Shown piece by piece: positions 3,233-60,056 of a stretch of 64,000 bases of DNA. The translations under genes were made by a program, and so were the position numbers. The stretch comes from Aplectana chamaeleonis (lineage: Eukaryota; Nematoda; Chromadorea; Rhabditida; Cosmocercidae). The stretch is taken from positions 290,501-354,500 of the forward strand of contig JAPDOI010000156.1 of the NCBI GenBank assembly GCA_029168955.1, in the 5' to 3' direction. Numbering within the stretch: position 1 is the stretch's first letter; each line of letters begins with the position of its first letter. The notes under the pieces were generated by a model. That model was not told where the DNA came from and did no database searches. It saw only the letters and a list, made by a program, of their open reading frames with translations.

Positions 3233-3675
3233 GAACCTCGCAACAAGAGACGAAGGAAGGAAGAATGGACAATTCTAGCGAACCAACGGTTGCGAAGGGA
3301 AAAGGTTCTTTATTTATGCGATACACATTTTCTGAAAAGGATAAAATCGTTATATAAATCCGTATTGTGGGAACATTTTGTTTCCAGGAAAAAGAGAGAG
3401 ACCGCATCATCATCATCGCCGACAAACGGGGTTGAGCGGGAAGTTCGTTTTCAACTCACACCTAAATGTCTCATCGGTCCACTCACCGGAGAATCAATCC
3501 GTTTTTCAGGACTATTGCTATAATCGTAGCAGTCCTGTGCTGTGTGTTGGTGACGCTTATCATTGTTGGCGTGGTTATCTTGGTGAGATCTAAAAGGAAG
3601 AGATATAAGAAACGGAAGGTCAGGCAGACACCGAGTGGAAAAAGCAAAAGCCCGGTGTCTGCAGAAAACGAGTGA
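3233..3675 (+). CDS. P0: 3' end of a Ly-6-like type I membrane protein gene (exons 7-9)
   Basis: Three exons can be joined in one frame. Exon 7 is 3233-3304, after acceptor GACACAG. Exon 8 is 3388-3442, with the donor chosen to give a 67-nt intron; 3430 is an alternative. Exon 9 is 3510-3675 and includes the stop. Phases (2-nt start/1-nt end, 2/2, 1/stop) equal those of the same exons in P2. Exon 7 is polar and charged, exon 8 is short with an HHHH run, and exon 9 encodes a ~23-residue hydrophobic helix (TIAIIVAVLCCVLVTLIIVG) followed by a Lys/Arg-rich cytoplasmic tail with TPSGKSKS, shared with P2 (TPSGKTGKSKS). The signal peptide and ectodomain exons lie upstream, not found in this window. 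Function is unknown; a cell-surface role is inferred from the topology. Confidence 0.72.
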
Positions 3676-3694
3676 CGATCAGAAGATTTCTGAT

Positions 3695-3713
3695 CCAAAA
3701 CCAAACCTATCTC
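3695..3713 (+). promoter_or_regulatory. Shared 3' UTR motif of P0
   Basis: The motif CCAAAACCAAACCTATCTC lies 20 nt after the stop. It recurs nearly unchanged after P1 and P2 stops although the surrounding UTR has diverged. A conserved RNA-level element is inferred. Confidence 0.6.
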
Positions 3714-3811
3714 GATGTAATTAGCGTCTTGCTTTCGTTCAGTTGAAAGTAAATGGTTCTGACAGTGTAGCTTGAAATTCTATACAGTTCGTATCAAAAT
3801 TACTACAGCAC

Positions 3812-4090
3812 CCCTACTCTGAGAAAATCGGTGCCGCTGGTTTCGCGATAGCCCCGAGATTCTCGCTGGTATCGCGATGGGGTATCGGCAGTTGATTGGC
3901 GGCTCCGTGATCGTGGAAAAGTGGTGTGTGACGCAGTCGCCCCGCGATAGCCTTATGTCGGCTCCGCAGTCCGATAAAGAGGTAGCGTAGACAACACGGC
4001 TCCTCGGTGAAACAGCGTCGGCACCGCGATGGGTGTGCAGGCTTTCAGTATCCCGTCGGCTCCGCGTTCGACACACCTCCGAACTGGCAC
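3812..4090. repeat. GC-rich hairpin repeat, family C
   Basis: It begins TACTCTGAGAAAATCGGTGCCG and continues with many imperfect copies of GCGATAG/CGGCTCCG hairpins. The same CTCTGAGAAAAT end is seen at 32,443, and its complement at 6,526, 25,668 and 33,082. The right end is not resolved. Confidence 0.45.
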
Positions 4091-4125
4091 ACATCAGTCA
4101 TACTGCAGTATCGATCAGATTTCCA

Positions 4126-5716: not shown

Positions 5717-5930
5717 GGGGCCGGATTCATCAACGAAATTTGGGGTATTTTATACCCCGAGTTTAATTAACTCCACTCCATACCCCAAAATAAACCCCAA
5801 ATGTATGTATCGGATACTCCCAAACATACCTCAGAAACTGGGGTTTATTTTTTGATGAATCGCAAAAATTTACCCCGCGGAGTAAATTATACCCTAAAAC
5901 CACGGTTTTATCGTTGATGAATCCGGCCCC
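5717..5930. mobile_element. 214-bp MITE with 19-bp inverted ends
   Basis: Ends GGGGCCGGATTCATCAACG and CGTTGATGAATCCGGCCCC are perfect reverse complements. The interior has further GGGGTAT/ATACCCC inverted motifs. No target duplication could be read with confidence. Confidence 0.8.
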
Positions 5931-13173: not shown

Positions 13174-13328
13174 ATGCTTAGTGAGTGTTACACAAGGATT
13201 TCTACTTCAGACTTCTCTGCAGTCTCTGAAGATCAACTCGATTTTCAGAGCTGCTAATTTTCATACTCGTATTACCGCCTCCGTCCCATGGATTGAAGTG
13301 CTACAAACTTGGGGTTGGACTAGAAATG
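13174..13328 (+). CDS. P1 exons 1-2 (signal peptide)
   Basis: Exon 1 is only ATG-CTT-A, before GTGAGTGTT. Exon 2 follows TCGATTTTCAG. Together they encode a hydrophobic leader ending PPPSHG and then LKCY. The 22 nt around exon 1 are nearly identical to P2 (CATGCTYAGTGAGTGTT), which fixes this start. Confidence 0.7.
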
Positions 13329-16300
13329 GTGAGGCAGTTCTCAGATTGCTTTCAATACAAGAGAAATCCCCGATAACTATTGGATTTTCATCAGTCGAAA
13401 AATAATGGGTTTTTGAGATAGCCAATCACTCTGCAGCACACCCCGTCCTCCTTCAAACCCTTTTCGGACCACAATCGTTTAGCAATTTGATAGCTTGATA
13501 TCCGTCAATGCTCACTGACCAGAAGCTATGACAAACAGCACAGTAACATCGCAATTATTTGTGAACTTTGCCACTTTCACCCTATGCTAACAATAAGCTT
13601 TTTTGTAACATGTTTGTAGCACTGATTCGCTAAAGAAGAAGAAGAAGAAGTAGCACTGAATCAAAAAAAGAAATAGACGTGCACATTGACTACCTTCGTG
13701 ATGGGGTAGGCTGCAAACACTAGGTTAGGAAATTGAATGCAGATGTAGGAATGTAGGTGTGAAGCTGCAGGAAGGATGGCTCATCTTGGTCACGGTTAGG
13801 GTGCGGTGCGGCACGAGGTGTGAGGGATTCCGATAGTGGTCAGACCCCCCCCCCCGCAGCAAGGTCTCGCTTAGCCTCCCACAATTTCATAAACATGCCG
13901 TGCATGTTCACTTTCACCTCCTCCTTATTGTGATTAACCCCTAAAAAATTTATAAAATTTCGACATTTCAACCTTAAAATAATTATTGAAGTTATAATTA
14001 CATCGCGTTCCATCCTTATGATAATAATAGTGCTATTTTGTACATGGCGAAAGAAACGACGACGACCCGGTTGTGGTGCCGGCCAGATGGGCGGTGTCAG
14101 TTTTCCAATTTTGAACCTCTTAGCCCCCCCCCGCCCCCTCTCCACAGAATAAAAACGTAACGGCCAACCGAACATTTCTCGTCACAACGCGGTCGCGTCA
14201 CGGCTTCTGTAAAAATTGATAACAATTGATAAAGGGTAGGGTATAACATAAGTTTAGAGCGGTGTGTCTTCATTCACATACCGTCCTTCTCCAAGGGTCA
14301 GCAGTTGAGTATCTGCATGGACTAGGAAGTAGGAAAACAGCACAGCCGGTGGTCAAGGTATACCAAAATCGGAGCAAAAAACTCAGAAAATTATAGAGCC
14401 GTGACGCGACCGCGTCGTGTTGAGCGATGTTCGGTTGGCCTTTACGTTTTTATCTCCACAGATCACCGGAGCTCAGACTCCCCACTGTGATGCCTCAAAC
14501 TTTGCGCCGTATCCTGGTCACAGCTCTACAATTTTCTGGTGCTGTTTTCCTCTTTCCCAGTTCAGGCAGATCTTCAACTGCTGTCCCGTAGAGAAGGACG
14601 GTATGTGAATGAAGACACACTGCTCTCCACTTCTTTTATACCCTACCCTTTATCAGGTTATTATCAATTTTGTTTACGAAAGCCATCCTTTTCGAAGCTT
14701 CATACCTACATTCCAGACAAGCACGCTCATGCCGATCAGTGGGCGAAGGGCTACAGTAACCCTCTTCTAAAAAGTTCCCAAATGTCAGCTTGGATAGGAG
14801 CACCTCGTTCTAGCCAGCACACATGCTTGCACAATTTCGACCTCCTTAGCCACTACCCGGTGGCTTATTGAAGAGAGCGGTGTGTGAATGAACGCATACC
14901 GCTCCTCTGCCCGTTTATACCCCGTATATTATTACGAGCGTAAGAAATCGTTCGTTATCATGTTTCGTTCAAGAATGGTTACGGTAGCCCGACGTAAAGA
15001 TTATCAGTATGAGCATTATAATACATTCCGGATGTAGCCCGCGCACATCGTTGTTGAATTCCTGCTGCATGAATACTTCTGAGTTATAGTTTCCCCTGAA
15101 CAATGAAAAATGAATATCTAAAAAAAGCCAGAAGACAAAATGCAAAAGTCGAAAAATTGTTCATGTATGAATGTCATGACAACATCTTAGATTTGATTGA
15201 GAAAATCGCCGTGGCCAGCCCGGTCGATACTTATGAGAAACATTGATGATAGAGGTTGAGAAAACACCCGGTGTATCTAGGTGTGTCTGACGCGGTCAAT
15301 ATGTATGAAATATGTGGAACGATATCATGGATATCATTCAATTTCTTACTTTGTATCATGTGAACATCGATCGGGTCAGCCACATCGGGTGTTTTTTGCA
15401 TCCCACCTGATTCATGTCTTTCATGATTATCGATATGGTCTTTCATGATTATCGACTACGCCGATCAAACAACTTTGACCGAGACCTGAGGTATAGGTTG
15501 GGCAAGAGACTCATAGCGTTATCGGATATCTGACAGCGAGCAAAATTTTAATTTTCATCAATGAATCTTGTGTGCCATCCTTCAACAACCTTGTCACAGA
15601 ATCTTTCAATTCTTGAAACTCACAGCAGTCTCGAATGATCTTTATTTATATTTATATAAAATACATCCGCGAATCCAAATGTGACCCACTTAATAAGAGG
15701 TTAACACTTTGGCAAAAATGAGAGAACTGACGTGCATCAGGGTGTAGACCCACCAGGCAACTGTATGAAACATTCGCTCAATTCCATAGATGAACATGGG
15801 GTCTTGATACCAGTGGTGCCTCCAACCGCCAGTAAGGACCGCAATTCATATAAAGATACCCTTTAACCGCTCGCACCCTAGCATACCACAGTCACATGAA
15901 GTAAGCAGCTACTCCTATTAGGAGCAAACGAGTAGCAGTATTTCGGCGGCACTAAAAAGTGGGTGGCCCAACCGGGGATTCATCGCCATGCACCTTGATT
16001 TTGTACACAATATCTTGAAGTCAGTCATGATCTTTGGAGAGGTTCGCATCCATTTTTAAGCTGATCGATTACCGAGCGGAAAATGCGGACTGCTGGCTTT
16101 CGTACAGAATCACTAGGAAGGAAGACTGTCCACTTGACGGCAAAGGAATAGACATGCGAGGAATGACAGAAGCGGTTGGCTACGAGAATTTTTTCAGATG
16201 ACGCATCGGGTTCTACGGAATTCAAAATTCATCCATTACAGGACGTACACGACCAGTTGTCAACTTCAGGAATGGTGTGGATTTGCGCCTCTGATCTATG

Positions 16301-19300
16301 CAATGATTTTGAATCTGTTTTAGAGAAGGTATCAGACGGAAAAAATGCTCCCTATATTTTGAGTTGGAACTTGTCCTCAATATTTCATTATCTTTTTCCC
16401 AACATTTCAATCTTCTTTACCTTGGAGTTTATGCAGCTGAACTATTGCTATGAGCTGGAAAAGACCGAAGATGCACCTTTCGCGCAATTCGGAATTAAAA
16501 GCAGTGTACTCTTTCGTAATAGGCGACCCACTTTGGCCAGGAAAAAAGCTCCTCGAGTTCGCTCAAAGGCACAGTATACCCTCAGCCAAGATTTTTTTGA
16601 TTTTTATTTGATTTTGTAGTAGACCCCTCCTATATAACACGTGCGAAGTACGAGATCTCAATTCCTACAAATAAGCGAGATATGATGTACCACCACAGGC
16701 CTCACCCCCTACTAGATTCCCCAAGTCGGCAGCGGCTTGATGGATGGGTGAATCCCCAAAGAGTCTTCGTTCTCCTGTCTCCATCTCCTGACTCGCTCTC
16801 GCGCAACGATTGCGAATGAAGAGAAATACAGGCCTGAGACAACTCGTCCACCAATTTTTTTACCCTCAAAATATAGGTATCTTTGAGGAGCCATAACTTT
16901 TTTTCACAGGGGATTCTGGGCGATTTCAGAGATACTGTGATGAGCGTGTGACTCTCTCCAAGATCAGCATGAAAACTGTAAAATAATTTTCTGGGTGTTC
17001 GATACCTTTAAACCCTACCTAAATCAACATCACAGGTTTACGAAGCAAAATATGTCCACATGTTTACCCACGTGCTCGTGTGTGTTCACACATCTGTTTA
17101 CGAGAAGCGCATTTCTGTTTCATTCCGTGGATGAACACTCTTCGGGCAAAAGTGGGTCGTCTGTCCATTTCGAAGAAGCACCAGAAGCAGGATTCGCTAT
17201 TAACTGATTGTTGAGCTCACCTCATTAGGATGTAGATCTGATCATCGCAGAAGTGCACAGTCATACCTCAGAATTACATAGTTGCGGGTGGACACGCAAC
17301 AGTCAGTCGTTCCAACTTCTTCCTGCGTGTTTTTTCTGACTTTTCGTTTATTTTCGCTCTTTGGATCGTCGAATCTACCTTCTAAGGAAATTAGCACAAC
17401 AACCGTTTCTATCGCGGACACTACTTTCAATCAGGTCGCACTCAGGGCTCGGGGATTCATTTATTCATTCATTCAATAGCTTTATTTTTCAATAAAGAAA
17501 CATACGTAATGTATCGAGGGAGGTTAAATACGCGATCCTGCGTTCGCAGGCAAGAGAACAACAAACAATACTCGTACAATTGGAGCACCATGTACTGAAA
17601 GGCAGCATAAAAGTTCTTAAAAGTGGTTGAGATAACTACGGAAATAGAATCGTATGACACAGAACACACCGCCTACGCAATTCGAAGCATCAGAAACGAC
17701 CCACAACGACACTACACGAGCAAGAAGTTGGCCGCGCCCTTGTATCTGCCCGCCTCCTGTGTTTGCTTCCTTGTCCGAAACTGGGGCCCTGGGTCATTCC
17801 CACCGTTGCCAATATATGTACGTTTTACAATAAGTACAGTAAGCAAAGCGAATTCATCGACAACGGTGAAAATGGCCCAGCATCACTGATTTTGAGGGAA
17901 ACAGCAAACTCAGGGGCGGGTAGATTCAGGGCGGGGCCATTTTCTTACTCGTGTAGCGGCATTGCGGGTCGTTTTTGGCGCTTCAAAATGCGTAGGCGTT
18001 GTGATCTGAGCGATACGATTATATTTCCGTTGTTATCTTGGACACGTTAAGAGGCATGTATGCTGCTTTTGAAGTTATAGCAGAAAGTGCGGCCATCCGT
18101 CCCTTGTAATGATCTGAGATTAAGGTGGAACAGTCTGCTCTGAAAAGGGCGTCAACGATTTCCGGGGGTAATTTGTTCCAAATTGGGATGACCCTGAACG
18201 CAAACGAATGCAGCACGTTAGATTCCGATGTAAATCTACGTTCGAGTAGACCGATCGGCTAACTCCCACCCAGTAGATAAGCACTGATCGGCTAACTCCC
18301 ATCCAGTAGATAAGCGCATGACAGGTGGTGTAGGTGATCGACTTGGCGAATTGATCAACGTCCGTTTGCAATCCATTCTGTATAGGAAATACACCCAATA
18401 AGTCTCGCTGCGTTCCGTCCGTAAGTCTTCCGTCATAGTTGGCCGATAGTCCGACGTAGTCCTCCTGGGTTATCCGTAGCCCCTTCCAGGTCGTCCGTAG
18501 TTCCACCTAGGTCGTCAATGAGGCAGCATAATGAGGCAGCAGCATTGGATGCCGGAATGATGGTATCCTTTATAAAACGTCGTAATTCACATAACTCGAG
18601 ACGCGAGCGATGTCTCAGCCTCCGTCTGCCCTCCGCTCTCTCATTGTCTCTAACCTCCGCTCTGCACCAGCACGCGTAGAACCCATGTGAGTTTTGCCGT
18701 TTTATAGCCTGTAGTGGTATTGAGCCTGTACGGATTTCGATCGGGCCGGAAACTCAGAATTTTTGAAACATTTTACCAAAGCCTTCCAGAGACTTACGAG
18801 GGTTCAACATACAATCAACTTATGTCTGGTTACAGAAACGATAATATTCTCGCAGCAGCTGGAAAAAACAAAAACCTGAAATGTAACGTATATCCGATAT
18901 CTGTTCATCGCTTCCATATGAATAAAAATAGTGGGCTTCAGATCTTTTTCGTAGTTAGGCTCCAAATTGCACATCATATAATCCTTTGTAAGATGTTGGA
19001 AGGCTTCGGTAACATGTTTGAAAAGTTCTGAGAAGGGGAGGGACTATCAGTGGGCAACTTTTTGTCTTTGCTCTGAGTGCTTTACTTGAGCATCGACTGG
19101 ATGGGCCCATGCTCTATTGTCCAGCTGTAGATGAAGCTCAAGAATCCGTAGCCGTCCATAATCCACCGAGCCGTGCGAGTATTGCTGCATATGACTCTCG
19201 TCGAATGAGCTCAGCCCCCGCTTCGACTACTGCACATTCCATTCCATTTCCGTTTATGTCGTCTGAGTATTGATTCCATAGTCGTCAGGGGATATCGAAA

Positions 19301-34131: not shown

Positions 34132-34398
34132 ATGCTCAGTGAGTGTTCCTCGAAACTCCCTATCAGTGTTAAGAAGCATTCCGGCGTACCGTGAGTGCGG
34201 GCAAAGTTTCGCGCAGGTTCTGATATTTAAAAGCCAAGCATCATCTGAACCTGCTCGAATTTTTTCAGAACAACTTTGACCCAAGAATGCATTGTCGCAT
34301 TGTTCTACGGCAATATTATTTTAGGGCTGCTGACCTCCATACTCGTGGTCCCGTTCTTGTGCCGCGGATTGAAGTGTTACGAGAATGACGCCGGAATG
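34132..34398 (+). CDS. P2 exons 1-2 (signal peptide)
   Basis: ATG-CTC-A before GTGAGTGTT; exon 2 after ATTATTTTAG encodes the hydrophobic leader, then RGLKCYENDAGM, ending at GTAAGA. The longer open frame starting at 34,276 on this strand is a different reading that includes intron. Confidence 0.75.
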
Positions 34399-46300: not shown

Positions 46301-49300
46301 GCTGCTGCTGAGTAGTCTTCGGGTTCGACAAGTTTTAAAAAAGTGGGAGGGTATTCTGACCGAAATCAATTCACAGTGAGTGGAAGTAAGTTTAATCCTA
46401 TGATAAAAAGATCAGAGAGCCACTAGTCCAGGCACTCTGGGGCTTACTCCCGCTTGGGAAACGGCTTAGATGCATCTGGGGTGGTGTTCTCCATTAACCC
46501 GTCAGCTTTTGCCGGGATGTTCGGAGCGATTCGAGTGTGTAGTCGTTACGTGTCGGTCGATATCGTGTGCCGATTGTCATCAAATCAATTGGGACGGGAT
46601 ATCAATCAAAAAATATCAAATACACACTGGAATCGCTTCAGATATCCCGGTGGATTGATGGGGAGTTCCACCAAGTGTTCAGCTTCGCAATCACGACAGA
46701 TCCATATCGTCTATGTTCAGCTCAATAAACCAATACCGAATGTTGCGGATGAAATAAGGAACGAAAAACGTAAATGCCTGGAAAACCTTGAGAGAGGTAG
46801 TTTGAAAACATTCCTAATGTCACCGTCCTGGTTTCGTTTCTGTAAGGGTGAACGTCAATTGTCAACAAGCCTTCAGCGAACGATGGAAAAGTGCTACCTG
46901 GTTCATCATTGCTGCCTCCAACAACCTCTGCTGCTCGGAAAACTGCTGAGGTCTCGACGAAGGCGCGGAGTACGACGCAGGCAACGGCGCGGACTGCGAC
47001 GCCGACAAAGAAGTGGACAACTTTATTTTCTCAGTCTTCCGAATCACCATCTACTATTTCTCAGACAGGTAAGGATTACTACATTTGGAATGTCAGAGAA
47101 CAGCGATTTTGTTCTAGATTTGTATTAAACTTCTTCGCTGTGAATGCAACATGCTGATTTCGTTGTTCCTTCAAAACGTTCTCTTGAATCCTCACACAAA
47201 AGTCCCTATGTAGCTAGACCCGCCCAGCTAGCGAGCTACTGGACCTGACCACGATTCATGCCAGCTCTGGAAGCGAGAAAGCGAGTCGTGGTTTTTGCAT
47301 CATGGGCGGGAGCACAGTATTTTGGTGAAGTTATGTTCTGGTTATTATTTGGTTTCCAGGAAACCACAATTCTTCCAAGGTTTATTCCCCGATACGTCTA
47401 TCGTCTTGTTGGTCACAGTGACGTCACCCGAGGCCATGACGTTTTTGGGGAAGAAAAACTTTTTAGCTGCTTTTTGCTTACGGGTGTTCCTGAGCTAAGC
47501 ACTGACGGACATTTTGCAACTTTTCGGCTTCTGCAGTGGTGGATAAATTTCCGTCGAGTCACATGAAGTCTTCGATGCAGCGCGCCCTGAGGCAGCGTCC
47601 ATACGTGGAGACAGCGTGCGTTACCGCTGTTGTGCGCCTTTCGACGCTCCTTAACGCTGGAGTAGCCCGTACCCGCAATTAAACACTGGCAAACACCCCC
47701 ACCCCGTTTTGACTTGATTGACAATCTTTGACCGGGTGATTAATCACTCGAATCGTCGCAACGGCTGATAATTTCCACAGGTTTGTGTATTCTGTGATGG
47801 GGTTATGGGGTACAAAGGCAATTGTTTTGCAACAGGTTTAATGTCTCCTACTTCAGGGATCGAGCAGGAAGCTTGAAACTTGTTGCTCCTTCTTTGAGCT
47901 GGCGTAAGCGTGCGAGAGCGAGCGGGCGTGAGCGCACGAGAGGGAGCGCGCGTGAGCGGAAAGCAAGACGTGTGCTCTTCATAAACATCGATTTTGCGTA
48001 TTTGCACGCTCTTGCGACGTATGGACGCGCCTGAGAAAGTCTCGCATTTTTTTCATTTCGCCGTTCCATTTTTGTTTGAAAGGTCGGTGAGGGCTTGTCC
48101 GTTAATATGACCGCATCATTTCAGATAAAGTTCGTGGTGCACATGGGATTAGACCAACGATATGAGAATTCTCTATTTTTTAGTCATCACGTTCATGATA
48201 ACCTCATCGCTGATTTTTTTAATGGCTGTACGAAACTCGGAAGTTGACATTTTGTTTACGAGCTCTTCAAGGCGTTGCTCGAATTCTGCCTTTTTTACTT
48301 CGTTGCTTTACGATTTGCTAAACCATTCGCAGATCCACTTGTAATCCTGTTAAAGGCAGTGTTCACGGTAATCTTCAATTTTGAGATTATTCGCTATATT
48401 GACTAAATGGCCCCCGTGTAGAACAAAAATGACGAAGAAATTGAGAAAAACGCACCAGAAGTACACGAAATCCTTAAGTAAGTGTCACCCCGCCTCTTAA
48501 GTATCACAGGAAGTGTTTGTTGTGACAATGAAATCTTTTGTGGACCCGTACTTTATAATTCTCTACTCTCTATTGCACCGTTCTCTACTTAGGGCCTTAA
48601 CTGATCCCGCTTTGCATAAAATATTCTTCTGTTTTCGATTGACCCAATTTTCCACCGGTGACAACCACCGTGAACATGTTCATCCAACCGGACAACTAGT
48701 CCAGGTTTAAGAATAATGTCGCTGAAATACGACGTTTTAATGCGTTTCTCGCCGATTCTTCGATATTTTCGTAACTTTGGAAGGCCAACGCATTATTTTA
48801 TGTGAAAAACTCGGGGACGAAAATCATCGTGAACACTGCCTTTAAGTACCTCATCTGCTATAGACGCACAAATACTATTCTGTCGAGGAAAAATCTCAAT
48901 TTAACTCTCGAAAACTGGTCCTTTTTCAGGAAAAGTTACAAGCCTAATCAATCAATGATTGCTTCGGAGAAATAAGCATGACTGTTAGCCTCAAAGGAAA
49001 AAATCTACAATCAACGCGAAAATGCTTTGCGGTCACCCTATGTGAGCCTCCAAATCTTGTAGGGTAGAAAGAACCGTTATCCTCGCGGGTTCGAGACTAG
49101 ATGTGTAGATATGATTTTTACAACAGTCATGGTAGAAAGCTTCCATTGTCATTCTCCTGCTAGTTAATCCGATACCATTAAGACTTGTAACGAGGGGTTT
49201 CTGAGAGCGCGGGGCGGCAGTGGCATTTGCCGTTGGTCCACTAAATTCACACGGATTACACTTGACCACTCAAATTGGGGTGTGACGGAGAATTTCTCAG

Positions 49301-49817
49301 TGCACTGTATTTAGTGGGAGATAAGGAAGCCTGACATAAACGGAGCTAGCCGAAGTTTTTAGGAGCCAGCAGCGATGATGAGCGTATGGGTGACATAGAC
49401 AATTTCAAGGAGCAGAACGAAGATGGTACGTTGCTCTTCTTGAAGAAATCCACTTTGCGAGTTGATGAAATATGTCGGAAGCATATTTTTCAGACGATTC
49501 TATGGAGGGGATATCGAATCATGGTACTCCAAAAGACGAGAACGTTGGATCAAACAGCAGGTAATGGTCCCATCTCTCGATTGGCAGCTTCACTAAAAGA
49601 CTAATTGAGGAACACATCAAACGTTCTACCTTTCAGAACTACTACAGTACTCGTGATCTTCTTGTGTTGTTTATTGATGACACTTGTCGTTATTGTCGTC
49701 ATAATCATAGTGCGTTTCAAGCAATCGAGGAAGAAAAAGCCCAAGATTCCAAAACCGAAAGTTTCGAAGACACCGAGCGGAAAAACGGGAAAGAGTAAAA
49801 GCACGCAGTCAAAGTAA
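34132..49817 (+). CDS. P2: complete Ly-6-like type I membrane protein gene, 283 aa
   Basis: Nine exons: 34132-34138, 34325-34398, 42015-42119, 42184-42270, 46721-46796, 46877-47068, 49363-49425, 49494-49560, 49637-49817. Their sum is 852 nt, an exact frame with stop. The product has a signal peptide (residues 1-17, M-L-R-L-L-T-S...) and an ectodomain with Cys 20, 38, 47, 77, 82 and 110. The start is GLKCY and the motif WICRDDLCN at 75-83 fits the C-x2-D-x-C-N end of Ly-6/uPAR domains. A Pro/Thr/Ser stalk covers about 120-180, acidic linker exons 181-223, a membrane helix ~227-249, and a Lys-rich cytoplasmic tail with TPSGKTGKSKS follows. Introns 2, 4 and 6 (7.6, 4.5 and 2.3 kb) hold most of the transposons. 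Cell-surface location is inferred; ligand and role are unknown. Confidence 0.78.
34496..34787. mobile_element. MITE, ACGCTCATGCC family copy 2
   Basis: Ends CACGCTCATGCCAATCA and TGATCGGCATAGGCGTG with inner GGGCTACCGTAACC/GGTTACGGTAGCCC; copy of 14,724-15,013. Confidence 0.65.
34825..36604. mobile_element. 1.78-kb inverted-end element carrying a 113-bp tandem array
   Basis: Ends CTCAGAACGTCGGAGGGCCG and CGGCCCTCCGACGTTCTGAG are perfect 20-bp inverted repeats. Inside are a 12-G run at 34,930-34,941, a minus-strand coding-like patch (34,980-35,300) with no recognised motif, and the tandem array at 35,570-36,085. No target duplication was identified. Confidence 0.7.
35570..36085. repeat. 113-bp tandem repeat, about five units
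   Basis: Units share ACCCGGGGATTACCTCCTTT, GGTGCAGCCNAAGGCTGCACC and CAAATGATTTAAACCACTCC. One unit (near 35,735) lacks the ~20-bp GGTGCAGCC hairpin. Identity between units is very high, so the array is young or homogenised. ORFs in it are by-products of the repeat. Confidence 0.9.
36990..37490 (+). pseudogene. RTE-like LINE fragment (reverse transcriptase C-terminus)
   Basis: Encodes FRYLGSTLSDS, KWRTAIGSLCDK, VKSKIYRSLVRPVALYGTEL and VMETMVLR...GLNRLDRVRNED, the region after the YADD block of RTE-type reverse transcriptases. It stops at YGSVLRDGEHSI and runs into unrelated repeat. Truncated at both ends; inside P2 intron 2. Confidence 0.8.
37690..37995 (-). promoter_or_regulatory. TATA + initiator repeat, family D copy 4
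   Basis: On the minus strand TATAAAA (37987-37981), GCCTCAGTCGG with its A 32 nt downstream (37955), then AAGGTGACCTCGAGTCAC and a G-run complementary to 37,831-37,842, as in copy 3. Confidence 0.55.
37996..38799. other. P2 intron 2, no exon
   Basis: Contains TTGCACCGTCAACCCG/TTTTCCACCGCCAAATAACCG, also present at 36,133-36,175, so a shared repeat fragment. Confidence 0.4.
38800..38902. mobile_element. ~100-bp hairpin element
   Basis: CCTAATGGCGGGCTACTGTA and TATAGCAGCCCGCCATTAGG are inverted copies inside a longer GCATCG.GGCGCGGCGC pairing. Confidence 0.75.
39108..39178 (+). ncRNA. tRNA-like Pol III box pair in left terminal repeat
   Basis: A box TGGTATAGTGG and B box GGGTTCGATCTCC are 30-odd nt apart, but the acceptor stem does not close fully, so it is tRNA-derived rather than a working tRNA. 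Confidence 0.5.
39480..41160 (-). CDS. DDE_1-type transposase, spliced or degenerate
   Basis: Read on the minus strand: an acidic N-terminal region (CILAHCDADSEEDLDSDAAD, ~41,100-40,905); a helix-rich DNA-binding-like block KDAIAFYRASVKGSRTLKVM (~40,830-40,610) after a possible acceptor; a middle part ending LIVDSWSSF (~39,890), the second catalytic Asp region; then NIPPGATSMIQPLDVFFFGP (~39,760-39,700), the family block before the third acidic residue. A stop right after SWSSF and several frame changes mean introns or decay; I could not join it into one frame. Pogo/jerky-like relatives use TA targets, whereas this one has TTA. Confidence 0.6.
41558..41630 (-). ncRNA. tRNA-like Pol III box pair in right terminal repeat
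   Basis: The inverted copy of 39,108-39,178 with an intact B box GGGTTCGATCCCC. Confidence 0.5.
42015..42270 (+). CDS. P2 exons 3-4 (ectodomain, DLCN motif)
   Basis: Exon 3 (42015-42119) follows GTTCAAG and encodes ENQECWLSYIGDNCPTDG. A 64-nt intron ends CTATTTTAG. Exon 4 (42184-42270) encodes DSMVWICRDDLCNSFASVAE and ends at GTAAAT. All phase 0. Confidence 0.78.
42271..42922. other. P2 intron 4, first part
   Basis: No exon seen. Confidence 0.4.
42923..43379. mobile_element. TTAA-flanked MITE, AGGCATCGT subfamily
   Basis: Starts AGGCATCGTACGTGAAG and ends GCGCGAACGATGCCT with TTAA on both sides (42919-42922, 43380-43383). Confidence 0.75.
43430..43960. repeat. Old dispersed repeat, copy 1
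   Basis: Diverged same-orientation match to 63,530-63,960 (AAATGGAC..CAAATTCG, CCGTATACCCACCG, ATCGATAAACYGACNNCAGAT). Confidence 0.55.
44140..45547. mobile_element. hAT-like element with heptamer subterminal repeats
   Basis: Ends CAGGGATGTGCGTAAT and ATTACGCACATCCCTG are inverted. The flanking 8-mers GTATGAAC (44132-44139) and GTACGAAC (45548-45555) form the duplication with one change. (ACGACTA)n blocks lie at ~44,157, 44,480 and 45,475-45,520 in the same orientation. No transposase is visible, so it is non-autonomous. Confidence 0.8.
44188..44461. mobile_element. PIF-like MITE nested in the hAT-like element
   Basis: Ends AGGGGTCTTCAGAGT and the inverse of AGGGGTCTGCAGAGT, flanked by TAA on both sides. 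It interrupts the left ACGACTA block of the host element. Confidence 0.65.
45548..46720. other. P2 intron 4, last part
   Basis: GGACTGTGCTTTTAA at 45,827-45,841 is a lone right end of the TTAA MITE type seen at 11,482. A Cys-rich open frame at 46,470-46,658 has no phase-matched place in P2 and is left out of the gene. Confidence 0.4.
46721..47068 (+). CDS. P2 exons 5-6 (sixth Cys; mucin-like stalk)
   Basis: Exon 5 (46721-46796) follows TATGTTCAG and encodes LNKPIPNVADEIRNEKRKCL; its P3 counterpart also starts Leu-Asn and keeps the Cys. An 80-nt intron follows. Exon 6 (46877-47068) encodes a stretch rich in Thr, Ser, Ala and Pro (TTSAARKTAEVSTKARSTTQ) and ends at GTAAGG. Overlapping frames on both strands over this region are not the product. 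Confidence 0.72.
47069..47586. other. P2 intron 6, first part
   Basis: A segment after TTTGGTTTCCAG (47,360) is open for 45 codons but does not fit the P2 phases. Confidence 0.35.
47587..48035. mobile_element. 449-bp MITE
   Basis: Inverted ends CTGAGGCAGCGTCCATACGT and ACGTATGGACGCGCCTGAG continue to AGCGTGC/GCACGCT. The centre has GAGCG/CGCTC-rich repeats (47,915-47,960). Confidence 0.7.
48354..48841. mobile_element. TTAA-flanked MITE, family A copy 5
   Basis: AGGCAGTGTTCACGG...ATCGTGAACACTGCCT with TTAA on both sides (48350-48353, 48842-48845). Confidence 0.8.
48846..49362. other. P2 intron 6, last part
   Basis: No exon seen before exon 7. Confidence 0.4.
49363..49817 (+). CDS. P2 exons 7-9 (acidic linker, membrane helix, basic tail)
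   Basis: Exon 7 (49363-49425) encodes ASSDDERMGDIDNFKEQNE. Exon 8 (49494-49560) encodes DSMEGISNHGTPKDENVGSN. Exon 9 (49637-49817) encodes TVLVIFLCCLLMTLVVIVVI, then RFKQSRKKKPKIPKPKVSK and TPSGKTGKSKS. Introns are 68 and 76 nt. Confidence 0.78.
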
Positions 49818-50299: not shown

Positions 50300-51460
50300 G
50301 GCTCCGTATCCGGATAGGGTGCCTGATCCAAATCTTCTCTCTTTCTTTTTCTTGAGCGTTTGTCCCGCTAGATTGCAGGGTCCGCATAGATAGATCGTTG
50401 GCGCCTCTTTTCACGACCGTGCTCCTGATCGGGGTGTATACCAGCAGCCTTAAGATTGTTGCGCAACGTGTCCAGCCACCGCTGCTTCAGACGTCTTTTT
50501 GGTCTCCTGCCATGCATGGACTTCTAAATCAAGAGCGATCTTCCGGACGGAATCGTCTTTACCACGCCAAACATGACTATACTATATCAATCTTGATTCA
50601 CGGAGCTTTTCAGCAGTGGGAGCAGCACCTAATCGCTTCCGGATGTCTTCATTGTGAATATGATCGAGACGCGTGATACCGGCGCTCTATCGCAGCATTT
50701 TCGTTTCCATAACGCTCGAGCGACGTTTTGCCTCTTTGGTCGCTGGCCAGCACTCAGCCCCAAAGAGTGCAACAGGTCGTATTACAGACCTGTACACTTT
50801 GGACTTCAGACGATCAGCAATCTTCTTATCGCAAAAGACACCGGTTGTTGAGCGCCACTTAGACCGAGCAGCATTGATACGGGCTGTTATCTTACAAACA
50901 ATGCCGCCGTCAGCAGTCATTGTCGATCCAAGATACTTGAAAGCGTCCCTAAGCGGTAGATTGGTGCCATTTATACTTATAGTGCCTGACTCATCTGCAT
51001 CGGTTGTCAAGTATTCGGTCTTCCTGACTTTGAGTCAAAGGCTGAACTGTGCAAAATGGTCACTCCAGAGCTGTGCTTGTTGAACCACATCGTTTTTGTG
51101 CTCCGACACCGGCATCACATCATCCGCATAGAGCAACGTCCACGGTGCCGGCTTCTGCAGATCCTTCGAGGCGGCTGCATCCATAACAATGACAAACAAC
51201 TGTGGAGATAGGGCCAAGCCTTGGTGCACACCCACTGAAATCGGAAATTTTTTCGTTTTGCCAGCGGCAGCACGTACGCGGCGTCTTGGGAGGCTATAGA
51301 GAACTCGCACCCACTCAGTGAGTTGGTTAAGGCACAGCATTCCTTCGCAGGGCCTACCAGATAAGCTCATGCGGAACACGAAAGGCCTCCAAATCGATGC
51401 AAGCAAAACGAAGCGGTATTTTTTTCTCGCTTTTTTCTTCACGATTTCTCAAATGCGACC
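50300..51460 (-). pseudogene. RTE-like LINE fragment with YADDV
   Basis: Minus-strand frames give RPCEGMLCLNQLTEWVRVLY, GVHQGLALSPQLFVIVMDAA, TLLYADDVMPVSEHKNDVV (catalytic YADD), then FKYLGSTMTADGG and VKSKVYRSVIRPVALFGAEC. A frameshift near 51,020 and an in-frame TAG near 50,695 break it. No endonuclease domain was found; it is a decayed RTE/BovB-type element between P2 and P3. Confidence 0.85.
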
Positions 51461-52244: not shown

Positions 52245-52247
52245 TTG

Positions 52248-53460: not shown

Positions 53461-53667
53461 ATGCGTTCTTTTCATCTTTCGAACCGATATGCTTACCGTT
53501 ATGCTTTTTTTAGTGAGTATTCTTTTATGTGCTCCACTTTCGCAGCTGGAACCGTTCGATTGAGAACAACGGTAACCTCCATTTCAGAATTGCTCACTCT
53601 CATTGCCGTGTTGCCAAGTCCTTGTTGTGGATTGACGTGCTACCAGCATTTCGGTGGATTCAAAATA
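53461..53667 (+). CDS. P3 exons 1-2 (signal peptide)
   Basis: Exon 1 ends ATGCTTTTTTTA before GTGAGTATT. Exon 2 after CTCCATTTCAG encodes LLTLIAVLPSPCCGLTCYQ and ends FKI before GTAAGA. Exon 2 is 80 nt, as in P1. Confidence 0.7.
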
Positions 53668-56600
53668 GTAAGAATTTCATAGCAGTTGGTGCCGTAAATT
53701 ATGTACATCCATTGTACTCTATCGCACTCTGTCAAAAGCCGACTAATTGACCCCAAGAATTTTCCTGTGGTACTACCTTAGACGGGAGGGGGCACTCAAA
53801 ATCGAGAGAGAAATCAACTTAACCACCGACTGGTACGCTATCAATTAAAGGATTTCTATAGGGTTTTCATGACAACAATAAACTGATCGCAGAATCAAGC
53901 ATCTTTTGTCAGAGATTTGCTTCATTTATATCAATAAATTTTGGGTGCCCCCCCCCCATCTATGATAGAGCCTTCTGCTTGTGCTAAGCACTCCAGCTAT
54001 AAACCTCCCAACGTGTTTGAGCGGAACATTTCCTATCACTTCTGAAATTGTGAAGAGTCACGTTTTGCCTTCAAAAGTTCCCTCCAAAGAGCTTTGTTAG
54101 GAAATCGTAATTGGATCGGGTTTGACACATCAAACGCGAGCAATTTTTGAGCCGAATCCATTCCGCTCACCGAAAATTCCATGAGGCAGTATCCAGTAAC
54201 GCCAATAACTTGTCGATTTCTTTTAAAATAAGCACTGTCATTTTCAAAGTTTCTCCAATCGGCCAGGCCAGCTCGCTAAACATAAGAACGTAAAGGCTAA
54301 CCGAACATTGTTCGACACGACGCGGTCGTGTCACGGCTCTTGTGAACAAAATTGATGATATTCAATCGATAGAGTTTAGGGTATAAAAAAGTGGAGAGCG
54401 GTGTGTCTTCATTCACATACCGTCCTCCTCCAGCGGTCAGCAGTTGAGGATCTGCATTGACTAGGAAGTAGGAAAACAGCACCACCGGTGGTAAAGTCGC
54501 ATATAGCAAAATTGGAGTAAAGACTCAGAAAATTACAGAGTCGTGTCGCGACCGCGTCGTGTCGAGCAATGTTCGGGTGGCCTTTACGTTCCCATTCGCC
54601 AAACTACCCTTTAAGGACACTGTCGCTGCGAACCAAAATGAAGCGTGCTCTTTTATGTACATGCATCTCTGTCCCGTTGATGCAGATTTTTTAATGTTCG
54701 CAGATAGAAAAAAGGTATTCTCTCTCACAATTGCTTCTGCGTTCTATAGAGAAGGAGGTGATTAACAAAACTCACCCAGTTCAGGTCTCGTTTGAAATAA
54801 CAGATGAAAAGCTATACATCTCTTGCCACAGAGATTTGTGCAACAGCATAAGTGGAATAAGAGATAAGGTACGTTGATGTTCCGCCAAAATATCAGGGGC
54901 TCCATGTTTGTTCTAGGAATTATCAGATACTGTTGTTGAAGCTTTACCGATCCGTCAAGTGTTAGGAAACATTGTTAAAACATACGATTACTGCGAGTAT
55001 TCTAGTGGAAAAAGCTGAGAAGTGCATATTCCACACTCACCTCTCCAGAAAAGGAATGACGATGTGATGGTAAAGAAAAAATGTTTACATGCCACTTAAA
55101 ATATGAGGCTGTAGTAAACCTCCTCGGAATGAAGTGAAGTTTAAGGCAGCATACACGCCCACAAACATGGTTGAGATAACAGCATAAAAAGGACCTCTGG
55201 GCCCCTACCATGTCGTCAACGGCGTTTGGAGCGCTGAAAACCATCCAGGTTGACAGAATTCGAGCTTTCCCGTCTCGGAAGCCTGTGGAACCCCACTCCT
55301 ACGAATAACAGAATGAAGAGTGAGGCATGTGGAAGCATTGGATAATTTAGAGCGATATCACTATCAAATGAGAGTCTACGAGAGAAACAGTTTGATTTCC
55401 CTGATTATAACTTGTTTACATGCCGATTAATTTCCGTCCACTTTCAAGAATGCCGCTCTACTCCGGCTGGCTTATTAAATGGAGCCTTTTATCAGTAAAC
55501 AGATATGTTATATTGAGGTGAATCAAGCCGTTTCTCTCACAGACTCTTAATTGATAGTGCTATCACTCTAAATTGTCAAATACTTTCGCATGCTCTACTC
55601 TTCATTTTGTTATTCGTAGGGGTGGGGTTCTATAGGCTTTTGAGACGGGAATGCTCGAATTCTGTCAACCTGGGTGGTCTGCAGCGCTTCAAACGCCGTT
55701 GAAGACATGGTAGGGGCCAGGCGGTCCTATTTATGCTGTTATCTGAACCATGTTGTGAGCGTGAATGCTGCCTTCAAGATGATCCTAAAGGCACCGTACA
55801 CGACGAAAACCGAATTCCATTTTTCTTGTGCCCATATCGGATTTCTTGAGTAACCTCTTTTCCGGCGGGTCTGGTAAGGGTAGGGAATACCTAACATCCA
55901 GAAATCCTATCTCGAATTCTTGACGCAAGTCCTGGTGCTCGTCAGACTGGCCCTATCCCTAGCGTCATCCGCCTCCTGCACTTTTTACCTGCTTTCGAGT
56001 TCATAATGTTACCAGCGTGTGTGCAGCCCCCACCATTACCTCCAACTCATGGGTGTGAGATTTTTTCAACTTGTTCTCAAGGTACCGTTTCTTTCAAGAT
56101 GCCATTTACTGCACAGATGTTTGAGCTTTTACATGTCTTGCCATTTACTTTGTTGCACTTCCTAAGTACTATATCTTCCTACTTTCAATCTTCATTTTTG
56201 ATTTCATTGGATTTCTACCTATTTTAATGAGTTTTCTGAGATTTTCGTTGTGGCTAATTTGGTTATGAGCACCTGGAAAATCTCCGGTGAGCTACCAGAT
56301 TCGGCTAGCGCCATCAGCGGAGCGGTGGGCCTCATATGAATTTATTTCTTAAGTACTTTACTATCTTCCTAATTTTAATCTTCATTTCTGATTTCATTGG
56401 GTTTCTACCTATTTTAATGAGTCTTTCTGAGATTCTTGTTGTGGCCAATTTTATTATGGTTATGGTTATGAGCATCTGGAGCACTTAAAGGCAGTGTTCA
56501 CGATAAGAATCGTTTTCCTGCTTTTCCGCCTATCTTGAAGACGGTCCAGTGCTGATTCCAATGCTTTTTGTAATTGTACAAGACCTTCTAGGAACGGAGT

Positions 56601-59600
56601 TATGGTCCCTCAAAAATTTAGCAAGGGAAGCATCGTGGACGAGTTGTCCGAGGCTTGTAACTTCCATCTTTTGCAGCCGATGTATGCTGGCTGACCTGAG
56701 TAAAGAGAGAAGTTGGGAATAAAGGGAACGGGGCTATTGATAGGAAACCATCGCTCATATCACAATCTCGAGCATTCATTTGTTCACGTCGGTGGGCGTG
56801 GAAATTGCATTTAGGGTGTGACGAGCTGACGGGTGTCCAACTTTAGGGCCGTAAGGGACCGTTCCGAGCTCATTTTTCTTAGTTTTTTTCAACGTTAGGG
56901 TTGCGCTAGGCCCCGCAGCTGCCGATCTCCATCAAAAAATCAGACATGGTTTTTATCGTAGACACTGCCTTTAAAGAAATGAATAAATATAAAGCTGTGA
57001 ATAAACTCTGGGAAATCTCCGGTGAGCTACCAGATTTGATGGATGAGGAGGTGATGAGGAGGTTCGGTCAAGAAAGCGACGGCTCCTTGCTGTGATGATC
57101 GACAAATTTACAGCTCATAGTCAGTAGAAATGCCTAGAGCTTACCTGATGGTGACAGCGGTGGACATCAAGGGAACAGTCGCCTCGAAGAACAAAAGTCG
57201 AAGACGGTGTGAGAAGGCGGACAGGGGTTCAACCGTAATGCAAGGAGATGAACACATCTGGCAACAGAGGGGATGTGGTCTCGTGAACAGAGAGGTCGTA
57301 GGGTGGGCATGGACGAAAAGTGCGCTCTCCACTTGCTGTTTGTCATCCCAAGCAGGCCAACTAGGGCAACAGGGCTAGGGTTGTCCTCAAAGGAGAAAGT
57401 GTTCACCAGAGGCTGGGACAGGGGCCCACAGAGAGAGGAGTAGCCTCGTTTTTGCAGCTGGACACGCCACGTCTCTCAATTCGAGCAAAGTGGTATCGAA
57501 CGGAATTAAAGTCGCAGAAAGCGAGACAACTTTTCCCTCGGTGTGTAGAGAGCCCTTATTCACGTTATATCCGACCACGCTAATTTAAGGAACACAGGGT
57601 GGTATCAGTAGCGCAGCACAGAAAGGTGCAGAATTTATTTATTTATTTTTGACCTCTTATGCACGTTTTTTCAGCTCAATAGAGCAAGAAAGGTTGACGA
57701 ACTCATTCGTGCAATGCATCTACAATGTTTGAACTTACTAGAAGAGGGTAAGTTGTCTGAAATCTTTCGCATTTAATCTCTCATTTTAACCAAAAAAACA
57801 TCCATCACTCTAATTATATAACTTTTTCTCCGAATTATTGCCATAAGGAAAGCACTCACACGCCAGACAATTGAGAGCCTTTAGTGGTTGATCACTTTTC
57901 GACCCTGCAGACCGATGCTAAGTTCTGTGCAACAGCCGCCTACCGGCGCGAGTTGAATAGGAGTGTGATGCACACATTTCGCGGTGTTTGGTGTGCGTGG
58001 TCAGATCAGACGCTCTTTTTTGGGGTGTGTTCTAGAACACAATGAGGTGGCAAGTTCCACCAGTGCTCTGTGCCTATACGGAGACCTTTTGGTTTGCAGT
58101 GAGAGCACTAAAGTTTCTTGTGCAGCATAGAAATATGTCGGATCAGCATAAAGTCTGTAGGAGGAGCAGCAAACCTTGTAGCAGGAGCAGTGGAGCTTGT
58201 ATCAGAGATATTCTGTGTGAACAGGGATTAGAGAGACCTCAGCGATGGCAGCGATGTTTTTCGCAAGAGTATCGAAGTCTGTGGTACGGGCACCATAGTT
58301 AACAGCAGATTCACCGGAGCAATTAGCAGTGGCAGCGCACTCTGTACAAGGGGCACCGGGGTGCTATAGACCACAGTTCCCATTTTACAGGCTTAGAAAA
58401 CTCTTCCCAGGAACACCCCGGCTCTTGCTGAAGAATCCTGCATCCCTGCTGCAGAATTCAGCCGGCCGTGTATGGGCTCCACTTTCCCTTGTAAGGTTTT
58501 AGACCGCCGCATACGCTGGTGCGAGTGCAGCGGTCTGGAACCTAACAAGGGAAAGTGGAGCTCGTAGAGGGCCGGTTGAAGTCTGAGTGCACTAGCGTAT
58601 GGAGCGGTTTGAAACCTTAGAAGAGAAAATGGAGTCTGTACCGGGCCGGTTAAAGTCTGCAGCAGGGATGCAGGATTCTTCAGCAAGGGCAGCGTTGCCC
58701 TAGGAGGAGTTTTCAAAGCCTGTAAAATGGGAAGTGTGGTCTACAGCAAAGGACCAGAGTTGATGGAAAGGCATCAAAGCCTCTAGTAGGGGCGTTGATT
58801 GTCAAAGCAATTTGGAGGGGTACCGTAGCTTAAGCAGGGACACTGCTTGTAGGAGCGCGGCGTTTGTAGCAGAGTCACTGGAGCTAGCAGTATGGGCAAT
58901 GAAGCGAGGTGTACAGGAGCGGCATCGAACCTCGAACCAGGGCACCAAATTTTGAACACATGCACAGAAGTTTCGAAAGAAGCGTTTATATCTGCAGCAG
59001 AGGAACAGACGTATGTAGTTGTGTGCAGAACTCTATAACAGGGGTACCTACGCGTGTCATAGGGTCAATGAAGTCTCTAGACCAGCGATCAACGCGCATA
59101 ACAGGGTAACCTAGGCTCATAGATTGCGGACCGAATTCGGTAAAGTATGCACAGACATTTGCATTAAAGACGACAAAGTCAGGAGCTGCACAAAGGTCTC
59201 AATAAAGAACATCGAAACATGTAGCAGACAAACAGGAGCCTCGGTCATGAGCTACACAACCTTTGTCCAGAAGAGCGACGTCTGTAGCGTGAGCAGCGAC
59301 ACCTGTATCAAGAGAAAAGAAGCTTTTAGAGGGGCACACACTAGTCTATAGCATGTTCGGGAAAGCTTGTACCAGTCTCACCTAAGCCTATTGCGTTGCA
59401 CTGCGATCCATGAAATTCGTAGTAGGCGAGCCGTAGCCTGTATAAGGGGCACCGAAGCTAGTAGCACAGGCATGGAGGTACGTTTTAGGGTCTTAGAAAT
59501 CGGCAGCTGCTGACAAGAATTCAAGGGCACCGAATCATGTAGAAACGGTTGCGTAGCCCGGTAAGGGACAATAGATGTAGTCTGTTTTAGGTGCACCGAC

Positions 59601-60056
59601 GTCTGTACAGGGCGCACCAGAGACTGTGGAAGGAGCAGCAGAATGTTCTTGGGGTGCAGGGGTAACAACTAAAAGCGATGGTCCTGTCTGAACTCGGACC
59701 CTAAGCTTTATGGCTCTACGCTTCAACTGACTTCGAATAGCTCTAGGGCCCTTAGATTGTCTGAGTGCTTGAAGAGAATAAAGTCGAGGATGAAATAGCA
59801 CATGCCGTCATGATATCAGGATAATTTTGAGTTTTCAGGCGGTTATTCCTGTTCCCTGAACTAGTTTTCAAGCTTAATATTTTGACTAGATTCGAAAATT
59901 TAGGCCAGACACTCTTTTCAGAATATTTGAAACGCAATACAACCACTTCGGCCACCACAACTACAACCACCCCCATAACCACTACAACAACTTCGACGAC
60001 AACGCAGACAACTACTACTCAGAGGACAACCACTACTGCTCCTTCTACTACAGCAA
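53461..60056 (+). CDS. P3: Ly-6-like type I membrane protein gene, 3' end not found
   Basis: Exons found: 1, 53461-53512; 2, 53588-53667; 3, 54616-54714; 4, 54785-54868; 5, 57675-57747; 6, 59922-60056. Phases equal P2 throughout (1, 0, 0, 0, 1, 1). The signal peptide ends PSPCCG and the mature start is LTCY. Further Cys are in EACSFMYMHLCP, ISCHRDLCN and LQCLNLLEE, giving the same six positions as P2. The stalk is almost pure Thr. Exons 7-9 were not found before 64,000, so the gene probably leaves the window. The start is uncertain: the short ATG-CTT start of P1/P2 would be out of phase here because of a run of seven T, so the upstream ATG at 53,461 is used. Confidence 0.68.
53668..54287. other. 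P3 intron 2, first part
   Basis: C-run at 53,948-53,957; no exon. Confidence 0.4.
54288..54589. mobile_element. Mutator-like MITE, second copy
   Basis: Ends ACGTAAAGGCTAACCGAACA and inverse, with CGACGCGGTCGTGTCACGGC arms, homologous to 14,149-14,453. No clear duplication is left. It sits 27 bp before exon 3. Confidence 0.7.
54616..54868 (+). CDS. P3 exons 3-4 (ectodomain, DLCN motif)
   Basis: Exon 3 follows CCTTTAAG and encodes NQNEACSFMYMHLCPVDAD. A 70-nt intron ends CAGTTCAG. Exon 4 encodes LYISCHRDLCNSISGIRDK and ends at GTACGT. The continuous frame over 54,559-54,765 reads through the intron start. Confidence 0.75.
55144..55773. mobile_element. TTAA-type MITE, family B copy 4
   Basis: AGGCAGCATACACGCCC...GCGTGAATGCTGCCT, flanks TTTA and TCAA, inverted halves; diverged from copies 1-2. 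Confidence 0.7.
55789..55830. mobile_element. Lone left end of a TTAA-type MITE
   Basis: CTAA then AGGCACCGTACACGACGAAAACCG; no matching right end recognised before 56,489. Confidence 0.4.
56165..56485. repeat. ~190-bp tandem duplication
   Basis: AAGTACT..ATATCTTCCTA...TTCATTNNTGATTTCATTGG...CTACCTATTTTAATGAG occurs at ~56,165 and ~56,350. The tail GAAAATCTCCGGTGAGCTACC of copy 1 is found again at 57,008 after the MITE, so the MITE split copy 2. Confidence 0.7.
56489..56970. mobile_element. TTAA-flanked MITE, family A copy 7
   Basis: AGGCAGTGTTCACGATAAG...ATCGTAGACACTGCCT with TTAA on both sides. The left part is very close to copy 3 at 22,282. Confidence 0.8.
56971..57674. other. P3 intron 4, last part
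   Basis: Overlapping ORFs on both strands at 57,130-57,400; no exon supported. Confidence 0.35.
57675..57747 (+). CDS. P3 exon 5 (sixth Cys)
   Basis: TTTTTTCAG precedes LNRARKVDELIRAMHLQCL, then NLLEE; the exon ends G before GTAAGT (phase 1). It aligns with P2 exon 5 at Leu-Asn, the Asp-Glu pair and the Cys. Confidence 0.7.
58130..59650. repeat. Degenerate ~30-bp minisatellite
   Basis: Repeated variants of TGTAGCAGRGGCACYGRAG fill the region, so ORFs on both strands show a 10-residue period. It lies in P3 intron 5. Confidence 0.65.
58423..58690. repeat. Inverted repeat inside the minisatellite
   Basis: TTGCTGAAGAATCCTGCATC (from 58,424) pairs with GATGCAGGATTCTTCAGCAA (to 58,687). An inner pair CTCCACTTTCCCTTG/CAAGGGAAAGTGGAG spans 58,479-58,561. 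Confidence 0.75.
59922..60056 (+). CDS. P3 exon 6 (Thr-rich mucin-like stalk)
   Basis: CTCTTTTCAG precedes EYLKRNTTTSATTTTTTPI; roughly two thir ds of its 44 residues are Thr. It ends A before GTAAGT. The phase (2-nt start, 1-nt end) equals exon 6 of P1 and P2. Dense O-glycosylation is expected from composition. Confidence 0.7.

Follow-up and report, generated by a model that had tools for sequence, protein, structure and literature searches.

A tandem array of genes for predicted mucin-stalked membrane proteins with a six-cysteine, Ly-6-like head in the nematode Aplectana chamaeleonis

Introduction

LU (Ly-6/uPAR) proteins such as SLURP-1 and CD59 (Pfam families UPAR_LY6 and CD59) display a small cysteine-stabilised head behind a signal peptide and are encoded in tandem clusters. 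One account of the group (PMC4839075) gives the N-terminal motif of the head as Leu-x-Cys-x2-Cys, its C-terminal motif as Cys-Cys-x4-Cys-Asn, and its disulfides as 3-26, 6-13, 19-39, 45-63 and 64-69. Here we describe a family that resembles these proteins in part and that was found in a window of 64,000 nt (C716:290501-354500; "the window" is this whole stretch) from Aplectana chamaeleonis, a toad-gut nematode with a published assembly of 1,036,852,746 bp in 2,088 sequences at 45.82% GC, as reported in PMC10043924. The window carries a tandem quartet of paralogous genes, P1-P4, and we consider it probable that these and their relatives, at least seven genes in all, encode predicted single-pass surface proteins in which a six-cysteine Ly-6-like head, an O-glycosylated stalk, and a membrane helix with a polybasic tail serve a recognition role. 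The likeness to LU proteins lies in the signal peptide, the L-x-C start, the C-x4-C-N end with about 65 residues between, the small cysteine-stabilised head and the tandem arrangement. The family differs in its cysteines, six as against ten, with the CC doublet missing and the sixth cysteine in an added exon. It also has nine exons where LU genes typically have three in the same account (PMC4839075), and a predicted transmembrane helix with a basic tail in place of a glycosylphosphatidylinositol (GPI) anchor or secretion.

Three other kinds of protein bear comparison. ODR-2/HOT proteins (PF06579), which are GPI-type neuronal proteins, are nematode and Ly-6-related by name, yet PF06579 matches no member of the family. 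Ectodomains of the TGF-beta receptor type, including that of BAMBI, set a three-finger-type head on a single-pass membrane protein; compared with these, the present family has no kinase, possesses a mucin-like stalk, and counts no activin-receptor family among its Pfam matches. Mucin-like type I adhesion receptors of the CD43/PSGL-1 class share the Thr/Ser/Pro stalk, the single helix and the basic juxtamembrane tail but are not known to have a six-cysteine head.

A tandem quartet of nine-exon genes

Scanning for motifs, comparing open pieces with one another and examining splice sites resolved P1-P4 as a tandem quartet on the + strand. When exons beyond the window are added, each gene gives a closed spliced frame from ATG to stop, of 843 nt in P1 (867 nt with an alternative end of its stalk exon), 729 nt in P2, 852 nt in P3 and 837 nt in P4. 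P2 spans window 13174-23540 and P3 34132-49817, and P4 begins at 53461. These three genes have nine exons each, of 7 to 192 nt, with the common phases 0-1, 1-0, 0-0, 0-0, 0-1, 1-1, 1-1, 1-2 and 2-stop; the phases of P1 are identical, save that exons 1 and 2 are read as one. Lengths are close in exons 2-5 of P2-P4 (74-80, 99-114, 84-87 and 73-76 nt) and variable in the stalk and linker exons, and the sequence at exon 1 of P2 and its donor, ATGCTTA/GTGAGT (the slash marks the exon end), is conserved. The splice dinucleotides AG/GT were our own choice and are not evidence in themselves; the evidence for the gene models is that phases recur, that each of exons 2-5 is nearly equal in length from gene to gene, and that the frames close.

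An earlier sequence-only reading of the window had proposed four paralogous + strand genes of small exons with matching phases, and the four closed frames confirm it, with exons 1 and 2 fused in P1. The motifs that it named are present, namely L-x-C, C...CP, C-x2-D-L-C-N (in P1 the variant CNTPLCN), Leu-Asn...Cys, a Thr/Ser/Pro exon, and a helix with a Lys/Arg tail, and the largest exon within P2-P4 has, as it said, 192 nt; it is P3 exon 6. The exact 852-nt frame that it reported exists, although it belongs to the third gene in genomic order (P3). The four gene sets are not all contained in the window: P1 has only its last three exons there (3233-3675), with the head and stalk exons to the left at C716:269859-286073, and P4, whose stalk exon does end at 60056, has its last three exons (linkers and membrane exon) to the right at C716:366402-366867 (window scale 75902-76367).

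Further members and constraint on the family

The assembly scanned here comprises 1.04 Gb in 2087 contigs. Whole-assembly protein searches, with pieces of P2, C7b, CX, P3 and P1 as queries, identified three more members, CX on C1361 and C7a and C7b on C7, all on the - strand; the remaining listed places are isolated, at E 0.077 or worse. The family has at least seven loci, a lower bound because the search scores best candidates only, and its expansion, as it was called in the sequence-only reading, is modest. CX, C7a and C7b could each be followed through head exons 2-5 and the membrane exon, and the stalk exon was located in six of the seven genes (P1-P4, C7a and C7b). A tree of heads and membrane exons (seven rows, one of four inner branches starred) separates P4, C7a and C7b from P1, P2, P3 and CX with a split at 100/100, and the array is therefore a mix of two subfamilies.

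The acceptor of exon 3 is AAG in all seven genes (window 16061, 42015 and 54616 for P2-P4), and AAG also occurs at other acceptors of the family; such acceptors are rare in nematodes. P1 (C716:269859-270026) has no AG at the exon-2 acceptor site, and the 81 nt matching its sisters' intron 1 are in frame and stop-free. Intron 1 of P4 and of C7b, 75 nt each, is likewise open in frame.

This is a real, constrained gene family in which amino-acid change is restrained. In the head the ratio of nonsynonymous to synonymous divergence (dN/dS) is 0.24-0.64 in 13 of 13 computable pairs, dS being saturated in 8 of the 21 pairs. The membrane exon gives values below 1 (0.21-0.65) in 17 of 18 computable pairs, with three of 21 saturated; the remaining pair, C7a/C7b, has 1.78 on a dS of 0.05. 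Third codon positions are the most divergent in 12 of 14 tabulated comparisons (7 of 21 pairs per segment), the exceptions being the membrane exons of C7a/C7b and of P2/P3, the latter a tie between first and third positions. The C7a and C7b membrane exons (C7:4319939 and C7:4338273) contrast in their low dS with the heads of the same two genes, at 0.55, and the 3' part of the pair looks as if it had been homogenised by gene conversion.

Two rival explanations meet these values directly. That the loci are decaying gene fragments or uncollapsed haplotypes, not working genes, might be suspected in a large, repeat-rich genome in which the C7a/C7b membrane exons are so close and P1 lacks an AG at its sisters' exon-2 acceptor position. 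We find this hardly credible, since P1 reads through in frame at the missing acceptor, four frames are closed, and no pair of heads has a dS under 0.55 or a dN that reaches its dS; uncollapsed haplotypes were rejected on that head dS. A role as gamete-surface recognition proteins, by analogy with the vertebrate LU proteins Bouncer and SPACA4, would suit a small family with membrane-bound, LU-like heads and divergent ectodomains. Bouncer sets the species specificity of fertilisation (PMC10267171), and SPACA4 is named as an LU protein in the account of that group (PMC4839075). Such a role nevertheless seems rather unlikely here, given a whole-head dN/dS below 1 in all computable pairs.

Relatives were also sought beyond this genome. 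A draft join of the P2 head exons returned no candidate among annotated proteins, and of the 261 candidates returned for an alignment of the seven heads not one reached E 1, in searches that covered the head only and that require shared 5-residue words and annotated proteins. As a control, the same database returns Heligmosomoides polygyrus and Ancylostoma ceylanicum proteins for a reverse-transcriptase open reading frame (ORF) of the window, and the lack of outside relatives is therefore informative but weak. Lineage specificity, which had been inferred from the window, is not established: no outside relative was found, but by a search with those two requirements. Literature searches on nematode Ly-6/uPAR/LU, odr-2, three-finger and transmembrane mucin proteins, and on Aplectana, yielded no such family.

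Stalk, membrane helix and tail

The stalk has 64 residues, 47% of them Ser/Thr/Pro, in P3 and 45 residues, 71% Ser/Thr/Pro, in P4, a composition from which it is likely to be O-glycosylated. The charged linker has 43 residues and a net charge of -10 in P3, and 46 residues and -2 in P4; the linker had been described as acidic, which holds for P3, barely for P4, and not for exon 8 of P1, which is Arg/His-rich. In all seven genes a hydrophobic helix, predicted to anchor the protein, precedes a tail of 29-34 residues that is basic. The membrane segment is 26 residues long in P3 and 25 in P4 (hydropathy 2.8), and the tail of 33 residues in both carries a net charge of +13 and +15, respectively. Every member except P2 has a Cys pair within the helix; P2 has a single Cys. 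The GPI anchor or secretion of LU proteins thus gives way to a predicted helix and basic tail in every member; a polybasic tail after a helix argues against a GPI signal. With a stalk exon in six of seven genes and a helix exon in seven of seven, the family shows the Thr/Ser/Pro stalk beside a single helix that defines mucin-like type I proteins. A paralogous family with type I topology (as predicted), a mucin-like stalk and a six-cysteine ectodomain, all proposed in the sequence-only reading, is supported.

A six-cysteine head with LU-like ends

Six ectodomain cysteines are invariant in the seven members: C1 in L-x-C, C2, C3 in C-P, C4 and C5 in C-x4-C-N, and C6 in exon 5. Five therefore lie inside the domain and one after it in every member, the distribution first read from the window. 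Four other residues are likewise invariant: the L that opens L-x-C, the P that follows C3, and both L and N in L-C-N. Set beside the LU head, the N-terminal motif is reduced to Leu-x-Cys (seven of seven, with the second Cys in none), the C-terminal motif is reduced to Cys-x4-Cys-Asn (seven of seven, with the Cys doublet in none), and no member has the ten cysteines of LU proteins or the seven or eight of their notable exceptions. Of the spacings that remain, C4-C5 is five residues in all seven, equal to bond 64-69, and C1-C5, at 61-74 residues versus 66, is close to the LU length; C1-C2 is 18-27 residues versus 23 in bond 3-26. The positions fit LU bonds 3-26 and 64-69, and counterparts of the other three are absent. 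C1-C2 and C4-C5 would then correspond to these two bonds, and the leftover C3 and C6 would pair in a bond without an LU equivalent.

These same features lend some weight to the possibility that the head is an unrelated small six-cysteine domain whose ends converge on L-x-C-Y and D-x-C-N. At most two LU bonds could form, the extra exon with its invariant cysteine has no LU counterpart, no profile score is significant, and decoys score better with other folds. Convergence would have to account, however, for shortened versions of the two end motifs, the exact spacing of C-x4-C-N, a C1-to-C5 length around that of LU proteins, and the lean of the weak matches toward LU proteins. A bolder proposal runs in the opposite direction: a new disulfide-reduced three-finger class that keeps two LU bonds, has lost three and has gained one that joins the domain to an added C-terminal helix, in a family of transmembrane receptors mounted on stalks that arose inside a single nematode lineage. 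We regard this as doubtful.

Profile searches suggest a direction. Against solved sequences, a profile of exons 2-4 has SLURP-1 (6zze) as its sole distinct match at E up to 10, at E 2.2 over the whole domain; with exon 5 added, SLURP-1 stands at E 1.7 behind three glycosyltransferase sequences at E 1.1. In Pfam, heads with their signal peptide match CD59 weakly in three of seven (P4 at E 0.028, C7b at 0.037, and P2 at 0.16 over 22 residues only), with scores of 12.1-14.5 bits versus a cut-off of 33.9. No other Pfam family matches more than a single head; C7a matches Tachystatin_B (E 0.53), and three of the seven heads match nothing. A CD59-like shield of the worm surface against host complement in the toad gut would draw on CD59 being the top weak Pfam match in those three heads and on the genome being that of a gut parasite of toads. 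It appears quite improbable, as the CD59 matches fall far under the cut-off and are lost without the signal peptide, and the family, to judge from its sequences, is neither GPI-anchored nor ten-cysteine, unlike CD59 proteins.

PF00021 and PF06579 were rejected as markers of these loci, as neither marks them; the PF06579 profile has its assembly matches elsewhere (C9, C204, C1383, C2, C324, and C7 near 1.84-1.85 Mb). Pfam matches such as DUF3268, DUF3884, DYN_lid, Orf78 and New_glue were taken as chance or low complexity. New_glue matches the Thr-rich stalk of P4 at its cut-off (31.1 versus 31 bits).

Several results weigh against a Ly-6-like surface family as we describe it. The SLURP-1 scores (E 1.7-2.2) are not significant, a gap-free core profile has no match among solved sequences and loses SLURP-1, and a profile comparison with the SLURP-1 stretch gives a 28.6% probability over 40 columns. 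The reversed gap-free core used as a decoy draws unrelated matches at E 0.18-0.83, and the second, a shuffled decoy, does so at E 0.46-0.93. No head has a Pfam match at the curated cut-off, UPAR_LY6 is unmatched, and CD59 is unmatched in four of seven heads with the signal peptide and in all seven without it. As for the genes, the models are predictions from genomic sequence, several donors are weak (GTTCGT and GTCCGT, for example), and the stalk exon of P1 has two possible ends. Frames were closed from end to end in P1-P4; CX, C7a and C7b were traced in part, and exon 1 and the stalk exon of CX were looked for at the CX locus and not found.

A third decoy, shuffled with the invariant columns kept, has no matches. 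Because decoys score better with other folds in two of three cases, E-values at the level of SLURP-1 are weightless alone, and what they suggest is a direction. No score is significant, CD59 matches none of the seven heads without the signal peptide, and the decoys behave as described; descent from Ly-6/uPAR proteins is therefore not established, and with profile matches this weak and unstable the family is not filed under Ly-6/uPAR. The term "Ly-6-like", used in the first reading, is partly supported, in that it fits the end motifs and the length, and the weak matches lean to LU proteins.

Exon coordinates and other features of the window

The exons of P1-P4 that lie in the window are collected in Table 1.

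Table 1. Exons of the four genes in the window (window coordinates).
Exon	Content	Position	Strand	Basis
P1 exon 7	polar linker, 72 nt, phase 1-1	3233..3304	+	spliced frame
P1 exon 8	Arg/His-rich linker, 55 nt, phase 1-2; weak donor, boundary uncertain	3388..3442	+	spliced frame
P1 last exon	membrane helix and basic tail, stop	3510..3675	+	spliced frame
P2 exon 1	ATG and 4 nt	13174..13180	+	conserved ATGCTTA/GTGAGT
P2 exon 2	signal peptide end, L-x-C-Y	13249..13328	+	
P2 exon 3	C...CP	16061..16174	+	
P2 exon 4	C-x2-D-L-C-N	16242..16328	+	
P2 exon 5	helix-like, sixth cysteine	20623..20698	+	
P2 exon 6	Thr/Ser/Pro stalk	20930..21016	+	
P2 exon 7	short acidic linker; least certain P2 exon	21206..21241	+	
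P2 exon 8	charged linker	23231..23309	+	best among enumerated candidate exons
P2 last exon	membrane helix and basic tail, stop	23378..23540	+	
P3 exon 1		34132..34138	+	
P3 exon 2	L-x-C-Y	34325..34398	+	
P3 exon 3	C...CP	42015..42119	+	
P3 exon 4	C-x2-D-L-C-N	42184..42270	+	
P3 exon 5	sixth cysteine	46721..46796	+	
P3 exon 6	Thr/Ser/Pro stalk; 192 nt, largest exon in P2-P4	46877..47068	+	
P3 exon 7	acidic linker	49363..49425	+	
P3 exon 8	acidic linker	49494..49560	+	
P3 last exon	membrane helix and basic tail, stop	49637..49817	+	
P4 exon 1	start at upstream ATG, 52 nt	53461..53512	+	
P4 exon 2	L-x-C-Y	53588..53667	+	
P4 exon 3	C...CP	54616..54714	+	
P4 exon 4	C-x2-D-L-C-N	54785..54868	+	
P4 exon 5	sixth cysteine	57675..57747	+	
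P4 exon 6	Thr-rich stalk	59922..60056	+	

Mobile elements account for several other features. Pieces of a Tc5-type DNA transposon (Transp_Tc5_C, HTH_Tnp_Tc5) lie at window 39378-39845 and 40270-40608 on the - strand. For a non-long-terminal-repeat (non-LTR) reverse-transcriptase piece at 37002-37628 (+), the matches include strongylid proteins (41-53% identity) and, unexpectedly, many from Panicum virgatum (32-51%); the two best matches of the retrotransposon ORF are strongylid, at 50% identity, and have little bearing on the host. A second non-LTR reverse-transcriptase piece, with an RVT_1 match, is at 51035-51448 (-). The repeat of about 460 bases at 1288-1746 has at least about 40 further copies at 88-95% identity, and ends resembling it were seen by eye just before exon 3 of CX. 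Window 597-961 is a near-palindrome of 365 bases with a 93% match to its own reverse complement, and a tRNA-like gene above the Rfam threshold lies within intron 7 of P2 (22039-22109, - strand). The assembly holds 1,024 exact copies (522 + 502) of the nematode spliced leader SL1, against 0 for a control, in keeping with a nematode genome.

Conclusions

These genes probably encode a family of transmembrane recognition proteins on mucin-like stalks; that the head is an LU domain with fewer disulfides is plausible but unproven. In such proteins the signal peptide would direct secretion, the head would engage a protein ligand where a surface is exposed (gut, gonad or cuticle-secreting epithelium), and the stalk would lift the head clear of the glycocalyx. 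Basic tails of vertebrate receptors bind acidic lipids or actin linkers, and the basic tail of this family may, by analogy with sialomucin-type receptors, be held at acidic lipids of the inner leaflet or at a cortical actin linker. If the head descends from LU proteins, the family would mean that the three-finger scaffold can lose and rewire disulfides and yet stay a displayed recognition module. If the account is true, it would also provide a set of surface proteins for a parasite of the toad gut, encoded by genes of tiny exons, such as gene finders are prone to fragment or overlook.

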